The position numbers and the translations under genes were made by a program. A stretch of DNA of 40,411 nucleotides from Fibrobacter sp. (lineage in GTDB: Bacteria; Fibrobacterota; Fibrobacteria; Fibrobacterales; Fibrobacteraceae). The stretch covers positions 1-40,411 of the forward strand of contig JAFVTX010000054.1 in NCBI GenBank assembly GCA_017503015.1, given 5' to 3'. The notes under the pieces were generated by a model, which was not told the DNA's origin, did no database searches, and saw only the letters and a program-made list of their open reading frames with translations. This document shows, piece by piece, positions 20,724 through 30,922 of the stretch (its first letter is position 1; every line of letters begins with the position of its first letter).

Positions 20724-20780
20724 ATGATGAACTTTGTGACATGTGCAACCCTTAACCGTCGTTGGTGGCGCGGACTCTAA
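20724..20780 (+). CDS. trpL: trp leader peptide upstream of trpE
   Basis: 18-residue ORF MMNFVTCATLNRRWWRGL with two adjacent TGG codons, followed closely by RNA arms able to form alternative hairpins. Ribosome stalling at the Trp codons when charged tRNA-Trp is scarce would favour read-through into trpE. The segment around the stop (GGACTCT...AGAGCCC) can form a pause hairpin, and its 3' arm GAGCCCGG can instead pair with CCGGACTC in the terminator arm with one mismatch. It may start at the first or second ATG, and no Shine-Dalgarno fits upstream. It is homologous in layout to the leaders before trpB. Confidence 0.85.
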   Translation: MMNFVTCATLNRRWWRGL

Positions 20781-20824
20781 CATAGAGCCCGGTATTTGTC
20801 GCAAATCACCCAAGATTTTAAAGC

Positions 20825-20859
20825 AAAGGCTTCCGGACTCACGGAGGCCTTTCTCTTTT
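20825..20859 (+). terminator. Attenuator terminator of trpE
   Basis: Eleven-base-pair stem AAAGGCTTCCG / CGGAGGCCTTT with a 6-base loop, followed by CTCTTTT. It lies between the Trp-rich leader peptide and trpE, with an overlapping antiterminator segment, so it works as a transcription attenuator and not as a constitutive stop. Confidence 0.88.
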
Positions 20860-20948
20860 ACCAAAATCATTGAAATCCTCCGGAAACCAAAGCCTTTGCG
20901 AAACCCTAAACCAGGAACGCAAAAGAGTTTATAAACCAGAGGATCAAA

Positions 20949-28354: not shown

Positions 28355-28383
28355 TTGACAGACAACGAATTAGTATATATATT
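28355..28383 (+). promoter_or_regulatory. Strong promoter of the distal (Trp-less) trpB leader
   Basis: TTGACA (28355-28360), exactly 17 bases, TATATT (28378-28383). Nearly perfect sigma-70 consensus and the best promoter in the trp region. The first leader ORF starts 13 bases after the -10. Confidence 0.8.
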
Positions 28384-28395
28384 GAAGTCATTAAG

Positions 28396-28461
28396 ATGAA
28401 TTTGGCAATCCGCTTTGACGCTAGCGCCGCTATCGACGAGGTTCTCAAAGAAGGGATTTAG
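28396..28461 (+). CDS. Trp-less leader peptide, duplicate of the trp leader
   Basis: 21-residue ORF beginning MNLAIRFDASAA and ending IDEVLKEGI. Its start aligns with the Trp leader 190 bases downstream (AAGATGAAT shared; MNLAIRFD against MNAVIRFN), but the positions of the three Trp codons hold Ser-Ala-Ala. The following TTTTCATCCAGTGTTTAAAA also matches the downstream unit (TTTTCATCAAGTGTTTT). It is therefore a tandem duplicate of a leader/attenuator that has lost Trp sensing. Whether it is translated is inferred from conservation only. Confidence 0.6.
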   Translation: MNLAIRFDASAAIDEVLKEGI

Positions 28462-28489
28462 GTATTGCCATTTTCATCCAGTGTTTAAA

Positions 28490-28522
28490 AAGGCGCTCGG
28501 TGTTCCCGACGCCTTATTTTTT
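28490..28522 (+). terminator. Terminator of the distal leader before trpB
   Basis: AAGGCG, bulged C, TCGG, 5-base loop, CCGA, CGCCTT, then ATTTTTT. AGCGCC at 28423-28428, inside the leader ORF, can pair with GGCGCT of the 5' arm (28492-28497), a possible antiterminator. Confidence 0.8.
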
Positions 28523-28544
28523 GTGTTATTTTGTGAGGAATCCC

Positions 28545-28573
28545 TTGCCAATGGGGTCATGACTTCCTAAATT
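28545..28573 (+). promoter_or_regulatory. Promoter of the proximal trpB leader
   Basis: TTGCCA (28545-28550), 17 bases, TAAATT (28568-28573). It resembles the trpE leader promoter, including the preceding CCC (CCCTTGCC). Confidence 0.65.
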
Positions 28574-28580
28574 TTAGCAC

Positions 28581-28637
28581 ATGAAGATGAATGCAGTAAT
28601 CCGTTTCAACCGTTGGTGGTGGGGCTCTACGAAATAG
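28581..28637 (+). CDS. trpL: trp leader peptide upstream of trpB
   Basis: MKMNAVIRFNRWWWGSTK, 18 residues with three adjacent TGG codons. Just after the stop, GAGTCCG (28637-28643) is an exact complement of CGGACTC (28681-28687) in the terminator's 5' arm and loop, giving a classical antiterminator. Stalling at the Trp codons would expose this arm and allow read-through to trpB-trpA. An internal ATG at 28587 aligns with the start of the duplicate leader and could be the true start. Confidence 0.88.
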   Translation: MKMNAVIRFNRWWWGSTK

Positions 28638-28672
28638 AGTCCGGTTTGCTGTTTTCATCAAGTGTTTTGTAA

Positions 28673-28702
28673 AAGGCTTTCGGACTCCCGAAGGCCTTTT
28701 TT
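28673..28702 (+). terminator. Attenuator terminator of trpB-trpA
   Basis: Eleven-base-pair stem AAGGCTTTCGG / CCGAAGGCCTT (one G-T pair), loop ACTC, then a run of T (28697-28702). It is mutually exclusive with pairing of 28637-28643 to 28681-28687. Confidence 0.92.
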
Positions 28703-28854: not shown

Positions 28855-30123
28855 ATGATCACCTCTGACAACGGTTTCTTTGACAAGTTCGGCGGCAAGT
28901 ATGTTGCCGAAATCATCCGCCGCCCGCTGGACGACCTGGAAGCGGCGTTCAACAAGTACATCCACGATCCGGAATTCCTCGAGGAGTTGCACGTTATCCA
29001 GCGCGACTACATTGGCCGCGAGACTCCGCTGTACTTTGCCCCGACGGCGACCGAACTCTTGGGTGGTGCGCAGATTTACATCAAGCTCGAAGGCCTCGCC
29101 AACACGGGCGCACACAAGATCAACAACGCCATCGGTCAGTGCTTGCTCGCAAAGAAGATGGGCAAGACCCGCATTATCGCGGAGACGGGTGCCGGCCAGC
29201 ACGGGCTCGCTACCGCAGCGGCCTGCGCAAAACTTGGCCTTGAATGCGTCGTATATATGGGTGAAGTGGACGTCCGCCGTCAGCAGCCCAACGTAGCCAC
29301 CATGGAAATGTACGGTGCCAAGGTTGTGCCGGTCACGAGCGGTAGCCGCACCCTGAAAGATGCCGTAAACGAAGCCATGCGGGACTGGGCCACGAATTTC
29401 AAGAACACCCACTACGTGCTGGGTTCCGCCCTGGGACCTGCGCCCTTCCCGGATATCGTTCGCACGTTCCAGTCCATCATCGGCGAAGAGGTTAAGCGCC
29501 AGGCTGCAGAACGCCACATCGACATCGCGGCGGTTGTGGCCTGCGTGGGTGGCGGTAGCAATTCCATCGGCGTGTTCACCCCGTTTATCGAAGACAAGAA
29601 TGTGCGCCTGATCGGTGCAGAAGCCGGCGGTATCGGGCCGAATGTGGGCGAAAACGCAGCCCGCATGACAGGCAACGCCAGCCGCGAAGGAATCGTGCAG
29701 GGCTACAAGAGCCGTTTCCTCATTGACGAAGACGGTCAGTCCATGCCGACCCGCTCCATTTCGGCAGGTCTTGACTACATGGGAATCGGCCCACAGCTTG
29801 CCGCCCTCGGCGAATCCGGCCGCGTGGAATTCACCGCCATCCTCGACAAGGAAGCTCTGGAAGCGGTGAAGTTCTTCGCCCGCAACGAAGGCATTCTCTT
29901 TGCCCTCGAAAGCGCCCACGCGGGTGCTGCCGCCATGAAGATTGCGAAGGAACTCCCGAAAGACAAGGCGCTGGTCATCAACATGAGTGGCCGCGGCGAC
30001 AAGGACATCTTTATCACGAGCCCGGTGTTCCGCCCCGAAAAGTGGAAGGAATTTTTGAAAGCCGAACTCAAGCGCCTCGACAACAACGAGGACATCCATG
30101 ATGCGGAGATAATGAACAAATAA
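28855..30123 (+). CDS. trpB: Tryptophan synthase beta chain
   Basis: PLP enzyme that condenses indole with serine to make tryptophan, working as an alpha2-beta2 complex with TrpA. 422 residues, normal for the TrpB1 type. The start FFDKFGGKYV matches the family. The PLP Lys88 is in TGAHKINNA, the catalytic Glu110 in AETGAGQHG, and the phosphate loop is GGGSNS near residue 235. SAGLDYMGIGP and SGRGDKD near the end are also canonical. One small difference is LEGLANTGAHKIN where many TrpB have LEDLNHTGAHKIN. It is first of a two-gene trpBA unit controlled by the double leader upstream. No Shine-Dalgarno is evident; the ATG follows a repetitive ACTAACCACT tract. Confidence 0.96.
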   Translation: MITSDNGFFDKFGGKYVAEIIRRPLDDLEAAFNKYIHDPEFLEELHVIQRDYIGRETPLYFAPTATELLGGAQIYIKLEGLANTGAHKINNAIGQCLLAKKMGKTRIIAETGAGQHGLATAAACAKLGLECVVYMGEVDVRRQQPNVATMEMYGAKVVPVTSGSRTLKDAVNEAMRDWATNFKNTHYVLGSALGPAPFPDIVRTFQSIIGEEVKRQAAERHIDIAAVVACVGGGSNSIGVFTPFIEDKNVRLIGAEAGGIGPNVGENAARMTGNASREGIVQGYKSRFLIDEDGQSMPTRSISAGLDYMGIGPQLAALGESGRVEFTAILDKEALEAVKFFARNEGILFALESAHAGAAAMKIAKELPKDKALVINMSGRGDKDIFITSPVFRPEKWKEFLKAELKRLDNNEDIHDAEIMNK

Positions 30124-30169: not shown

Positions 30170-30922
30170 ATGAACTTAATGTCTCATCTCATTGCCGGGT
30201 TTCCGGACGCAGAAACTTCTATCGCCATCGCCGACGCTCTTGTGAAGGGTGGCGCCAACATCCTTGAAATCCAGCTGGCCTTCAGTGACCCCAGCGCCGA
30301 CGGTCCGGCGATTCAGACGGCATCGACCATTGCGCTGGAAAAGGGCTACTCCACCAAGCAGGGACTTGCCATCGTGAAGCAGATTCACGAACGCCATCCC
30401 GAGACGCCTATCTACATCATGACCTACGGCTCCCTGGCCTTTACGCCAGGCGTCGAGAACTTCGTGAAGATGTGCAAGGACGCCGGCGTTTCCGCCTGCA
30501 TCATTCCGGACTTGCCGTTTGACGGAGACGAAGGCTTGACCGAGGCTTGCAAGAAGCACGGTCTTGAAAACATCCCGGTGGCCGCTCCCTCCATGACGAA
30601 GGAACGTCTCGAAACGATGGCTTCAAAGGGCTTCAAGTACATCTACGCCGCACTCCGTGCGGGCACGACCGGCAGCGAGACGACCATTGACCAGGCGACC
30701 CTGGACTTTATTGACACCGTCGGTAAGGGTGGCGCCAAGGTGCTGGGCGGATTCGGCATCCGCAATGGCGAACAGTCCAGAGTGCTCTCCAAGCATGTGT
30801 ATGCCGTGGTGGCAGGTTCCGTTTTCGTGAACATCGTGCTCTCTAACGAAGATTCCGATGAAGGTCGCAAGAAGGCCATCGCCGAAATCGAGGCGAAGGC
30901 TAAAGAGATTTCGGGATCTTGA
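30170..30922 (+). CDS. trpA: Tryptophan synthase alpha chain
   Basis: Cleaves indole-3-glycerol phosphate to indole and glyceraldehyde 3-phosphate, passing indole through a tunnel to TrpB. 250 residues, slightly short, mainly at the N-terminus (MNLMSHLIAGFPD). The catalytic pair is Glu33 in LEIQLAFSDP and Asp44 in PSADGPAIQ. IIPDLPFDGDE, AAPSM, GTTGSET and GGFGIRNGEQ follow in family order. The LEIQ.AFSDPSADG form differs from the commoner LELGVPFSDPLADG but keeps the active-site residues. It lies 46 bases after trpB with a palindromic repeat between them. A terminator at 31121-31141 probably ends the unit after several more repeats. Confidence 0.94.
   Translation: MNLMSHLIAGFPDAETSIAIADALVKGGANILEIQLAFSDPSADGPAIQTASTIALEKGYSTKQGLAIVKQIHERHPETPIYIMTYGSLAFTPGVENFVKMCKDAGVSACIIPDLPFDGDEGLTEACKKHGLENIPVAAPSMTKERLETMASKGFKYIYAALRAGTTGSETTIDQATLDFIDTVGKGGAKVLGGFGIRNGEQSRVLSKHVYAVVAGSVFVNIVLSNEDSDEGRKKAIAEIEAKAKEISGS

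Follow-up and report, generated by a model that had tools for sequence, protein, structure and literature searches.

A tandem trp leader ahead of trpBA in Fibrobacter and a candidate small RNA gene in its upstream copy

The trp locus and its two leader units

The window, meaning the whole 40,411-nucleotide stretch of Fibrobacter DNA analysed here, has a trp region with trpE (from 20949), a trpG-trpD fusion (from 22547) and a trpC-trpF fusion (from 24157). At least two minus-strand genes and both leader units stand between this last fusion and trpB (28855..30123, plus strand), which keeps the name given in an earlier note on this DNA and whose 90-99% identical relatives have the same leader recurring ahead of them. 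Records named as Fibrobacter have TrpB 97-98% identical to that of the window, and the genus is assigned on that basis. The next gene is trpA (30170..30922, plus strand; Pfam Trp_syntA), and the tandem leader pair stands in Fibrobacter ahead of trpBA, the genes for the final step in making tryptophan. Terminator-like sites numbered three, versus 0.5 expected. A separate WW leader, MMNFVTCATLNRRWWRGL, with its own terminator precedes trpE (20724-20860; ATG at 20724, ...NRRWWRGL), and the trpE and trpB leaders are the two Trp attenuators of the window genome.

The distal unit (28355-28523) is the upstream duplicate of the proximal leader, and the elements of both units lie on the plus strand. 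Promoters were called from consensus and conservation. The distal promoter, TTGACA-17-TATATT (28355..28383; TTGACA at 28355-28360, TATATT at 28378-28383), matches the consensus at 11/12 positions and is the best in the stretch. The leader ORF MNLAIRFDASAAIDEVLKEGI (28396..28461; ATG at 28396, TAG at 28459-28461, 21 codons) is not conserved in relatives. RNA folding and pair counts placed a helix P1, with a 5' strand ATGAATTTGGCAATCC (28396..28411) that contains the leader start codon and a 3' strand GGTATTGCCATTTTCAT (28461..28477), and a helix P2 (28412..28442) that occupies the place of the Trp codons; a third helix, P3 (TCTC/GGGA, 28443..28456), was placed by pair counts. The linker CMAGTGTTT (28478..28486) follows, and then an intrinsic terminator (28491..28523) made of a stem at 28491-28514 plus TATTTTTTG. 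The linker is common to both units of the clade (28478-28486 and 28659-28667) and its columns are nearly invariant there, but not in outgroup leaders.

A covariance model was built on distal copies alone, 20 in number, and searched against the whole window genome. It detected the distal unit at 93 bits and the entire length of the proximal unit with a score of 53.9 bits (E 9.5e-8 genome-wide), and no further match in the window genome reached E 1. This likeness goes beyond chance, indicating at the level of sequence that the two units are homologous and that the tandem duplication described in the earlier note is real, with the coordinates given there.

Among 111 genomes of the family, many of them metagenome bins, 55 gave a model match, all in Fibrobacter (1 of 11 genera), and the distal unit was present in 50 of the 55 genomes having either unit. 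The remaining five (G012, G029, G034, G055 and G080) have the proximal unit only, and in all five trpBA lies away from trpCF. Six genomes have trpBA away from trpCF, with the distal unit lost in five of them; these are counts of genomes, and the trpB tree has weak branches. The distal unit is degraded in G089, where the -10 is missing. In G026, outside the distal-unit clade, trpCF is followed directly by one Trp leader and trpBA, and this arrangement is the pre-duplication state. In G038 the distal unit lies past the 3' end of trpCF and is followed by convergent ATP-synthase-like genes, and trpBA is on another contig; this layout is to be taken cautiously because it comes from a metagenome assembly. 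Neither unit was present in G018, where trpB directly follows a trpCF that bears a WWW leader. A WWW attenuator of trpCF itself (M..ANRWWWGS..) was seen in some relatives, at about 225-390 of L178 (G048) and 5' of trpCF in L203 (G018).

The proximal Trp attenuator

The proximal unit (28545-28700) has a promoter matching TTGCCA-17-TAAATT (28545..28573), called from consensus, and a CCCTTGCCA...TTCCTAAATTT block recurs 5' of the Trp leader in relatives. Its leader ORF MKMNAVIRFNRWWWGSTK (28581..28637) carries three Trp codons at 28614-28622. Only about 7 bases separate the -10 from the ATG at 28581, so the transcript would be leaderless or nearly so, as judged from the promoter. Pairing energies define strand 2 as GAGTCCGG (28637..28644) and strand 3 as TTCGGACTC (28679-28687) in the 5' part of the terminator (28671..28700). 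Over 24 distinct leader-terminator combinations, strand 2 paired with strand 3 at a mean of -16.5 kcal/mol versus -9.9 kcal/mol for shuffled arms, an antiterminator advantage of about 6.5 kcal/mol. WWW was present in 16/16 distinct proximal codon windows, chosen by TGGTGGTGG, and the flanking codons change little; outgroup Trp leaders retain WW or WWW. The proximal unit also forms the same closing helix as the distal unit (fold z -4.1). With both tandem Trp codons and an antiterminator, it is an ordinary ribosome-mediated Trp attenuator, as the earlier note had recognised. It resembles E. coli-type trpL attenuators in its tandem Trp codons, its 1:2, 2:3 and 3:4 pairings and its terminator, whereas the distal unit differs from them in lacking tandem Trp codons, a 2:3 pairing and a conserved frame. 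In one genome, G096 (L181), a deletion has removed the proximal -10 together with the start of the leader and its first codons, and the distal unit, WWW and proximal terminator are retained; this is either a natural variant or an assembly error.

Loss of the switch and retention of the fold in the distal unit

We compared the distal ORF among 36 distinct cores. It spanned 2, 9, 15, 18, 21, 27, 29, 44, 45 or 50 codons or stayed open through the terminator. GTG starts occurred in 13 of 34 comparable cores, and most codon changes altered the amino acid. No tandem regulatory codons in a conserved frame were found in the distal ORF, which held 0 or 1 Trp codon and so lacks tandem Trp codons, as the earlier note had seen. 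The idea that the distal leader peptide senses another amino acid was rejected, since the frame is not conserved. Pairing of the distal core with the 5' arm and loop of the terminator, the only part covered by the swap test, gave -10.5 kcal/mol for the core's own terminator, -10.2 for swapped and -10.3 for shuffled ones. An antiterminator formed via P1, P2 or P3 was rejected on this test, and the two attenuators in series that the earlier note had expected transcripts to pass are not supported. The distal terminator arms comprised 23 distinct sequences, with the hairpin kept throughout this drift, and nearly all copies have the stem and T-tract of an intrinsic terminator. These results indicate that the distal unit, as far as predicted pairing goes, has lost both the Trp codons that serve as sensor and the antiterminator made by strands 2 and 3. 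They also bear on a second sensor, a distal fold serving as riboswitch or attenuator for another signal with the terminator as its output. A structured core followed by a terminator, and covariation within that core, would suit such a device, but the core pairs with the terminator arm no better than chance, the terminator sequences vary freely while the core stays, the leader offers neither a conserved frame nor a repeated codon, the inner fold was rebuilt in one clade, and Rfam gave no gathering-score match in the window, where relaxed thresholds yielded only sub-threshold matches for this region. We regard a second sensor as quite improbable.

In the closing helix of the distal unit, ATGAA..GGCAATCC pairs with GG..TTGCC.TTTTCAT and encloses P2 and P3. 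In both units the start codon pairs with the linker TTTTCATC, which the earlier note had aligned between the two copies. This linker and part of the ORF start common to the units are the two strands of one helix (ATGAA with TTCAT), so that the likeness described in that note stands but is an RNA feature as much as a peptide one. For E. coli trpL, the literature of the 1980s describes a similar masking of the leader start by the leader RNA itself. The consensus structure paired 97.1% of cells, with 18 changed on both sides, and 0/500 shuffles reached as high, which is support and not proof because related sequences can beat shuffles without structure; the distal covariation rests on few pairs. 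Versions with slid partners paired 28-59% of cells, again support and not proof because the structure was derived from the same sequences. The distal fold z was -3.3 for the window copy, and five other clades gave -1.9 to -4.3. A three-way junction forms the inner fold in most clades, and the GTG-start clade has one long hairpin with the closing helix unchanged. In several clades (L003, L031; window 28412-28442 with 28478-28486) the P2 loop has CGCTTG, the complement of CAAGTG in the linker, and L003 and L046 show a paired loop/linker change, CTAG/CTAG. We do not claim a loop-linker pseudoknot because the pairing does not hold in the clade of the window or in the CTCG clade.

Four-fold-site differences in trpB between representative clades were 0.26-0.46, mostly at least 0.30. 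Mean pairwise identity across divergent clades was 0.79 for the 50-base distal promoter block, where the spacer is preserved as well as the hexamers, and 0.74 for the distal core with gaps scored as mismatches. The proximal promoter and core gave 0.85, and flanking DNA 0.38 upstream and 0.39 just 5' of trpB. Identity this far above the flanks, despite the divergence of trpB, indicates selection on the distal unit across most of its range, so that it is not simply decaying. A Trp repressor site as the cause of promoter conservation was ruled out, as no TrpR was found in the genome. That the unit is a functionless, decaying leftover of the duplication appears very doubtful: its broken ORF, its loss in at least five genomes and the G089 copy without a -10 fit decay, but conservation far above the flanks at about 30-46% four-fold-site divergence is a strong argument against it, joined by the spacer kept as well as the hexamers and by compensatory changes in the fold. 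Of the possibilities raised in the earlier note, selective retention of the distal promoter (79% identical) and terminator hairpin agrees with these data, and general decay does not, yet the -10 is gone in G089 and the unit as a whole in at least five genomes. Alignment to related genomes, which that note had looked to for a conserved frame and terminator, revealed frameshifts, while the distal unit and its hairpin persist.

A candidate small RNA gene and its main rival

The distal unit has its own predicted promoter and a terminator, a conserved structure and no conserved ORF. Promoter, structure and terminator conserved without a conserved ORF or antiterminator are best read as a small RNA gene. 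The unit is thus probably a constitutively terminated stand-alone RNA of about 125 nt, derived from the attenuator and kept as a non-coding transcription unit. On this reading, the trp leader would have been duplicated, and the copy would have dropped the Trp-codon sensor and the antiterminator. Its own promoter would make a short RNA of about 125 nt, with the start codon locked in the long closing helix with the linker, and the RNA would end, largely constitutively, at a terminator independent of translation. The product may work as an RNA in its own right, for instance by acting on trp transcripts in trans or by serving as a decoy for a factor that recognises the helix-plus-linker motif, which it still has in common with the working leader. 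Quite possibly, although somewhat less likely than not, this is a new clade-specific sRNA family; such an RNA would regulate the trp genes in trans or sequester a factor recognising the start-codon helix and the CAUCAAGUG linker of the working leader.

Evidence on the RNA-gene reading also comes from an intervening gene. At least 14 genomes of two clades retain the distal unit with a gene for a DHH + DHHA2 lipoprotein-like protein (family II pyrophosphatase-like) separating it from the proximal unit. A pyrophosphatase-like protein with a lipoprotein-like signal inside the trp region was seen at 2474-3628 of L161 and in relatives. In the GTG-start clade the distal terminator is strong, with some 90 bases or more between it and the gene. 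The other clade includes five genomes in which the terminator has a weak T-tract and the gene starts about 13 bases past the stem. The distal unit could be the leader of this gene, since lost in the window genome, as the gene lies directly 3' of it in these 14 or more genomes of two clades. We consider this extremely unlikely, because in most such genomes the two are set apart by a strong terminator and some 90 bases or more, the gene is absent there in most unit-bearing genomes, and homology ties the unit to the trp leader.

The main rival to the RNA-gene reading is a basal trpBA promoter, in which a constitutive distal promoter and a leaky terminator would feed a small, tryptophan-independent flow of polymerase to trpBA and, in some genomes, also to the pyrophosphatase gene, acting ahead of the proximal attenuator. 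The distal unit has the same orientation as trpBA and is close to it in most genomes, it is usually lost (5/6) once trpBA no longer adjoins trpCF, the five weak T-tracts lie right ahead of the pyrophosphatase gene, and G096 kept the distal promoter without a proximal -10 and leader start, all of which would fit such a promoter. However, the terminator hairpin is strong in nearly all other genomes, read-through would meet the proximal attenuator anyway, and a leaky promoter needs no conserved fold or linker, and we judge a basal promoter unlikely both for trpBA and for the pyrophosphatase gene. The reading as an RNA gene is favoured by persistence of the unit where the pyrophosphatase-like gene intervenes and at trpCF in G038. 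Counted against it are the clade-variable inner fold, the weak T-tracts in five genomes and the few covarying pairs, and the loss in 5/6 genomes with trpBA away from trpCF could hint at a cis role. Hfq was not found in the window genome, which counts against an sRNA; Hfq is dispensable for many sRNAs.

We found no report of attenuation in Fibrobacter in the literature searched. In Sinorhizobium meliloti, rnTrpL is a terminated trp leader RNA that begins with the trpL ATG and, according to a passage of PMC7298713 citing Melior 2019, is reported to destabilise trpDC mRNA in trans. As described in that passage, rnTrpL shares with the Fibrobacter distal RNA a short, terminated trp leader form starting at or near the AUG and trp genes in separate units, and it differs in being a by-product of a working attenuator, whereas the distal unit is a separate duplicate without attenuation whose trans action is putative. 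The rnTrpL work shows that a trp leader, once terminated, can have activity in trans (PMC7298713), and the distal copy, free of attenuation duty, suits testing such action. The Salmonella mgtCBR operon likewise has two leader elements in a row ahead of one operon, but both of its short ORFs are thought to matter (PMC3641672), whereas in Fibrobacter the attenuator logic lies in one unit and the promoters are separate.

If the RNA-gene reading is true, a cis-acting attenuator would have been caught turning into a separate RNA gene. One genus shows all the stages: G026 in the pre-duplication state, copies that are intact, copies with a rebuilt fold, one whose promoter is dead, and genomes that have lost the unit. 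One genome, G006 (L160), has two distal units, at 2303 and 3057, about 750 bases apart and ahead of the pyrophosphatase-like gene.
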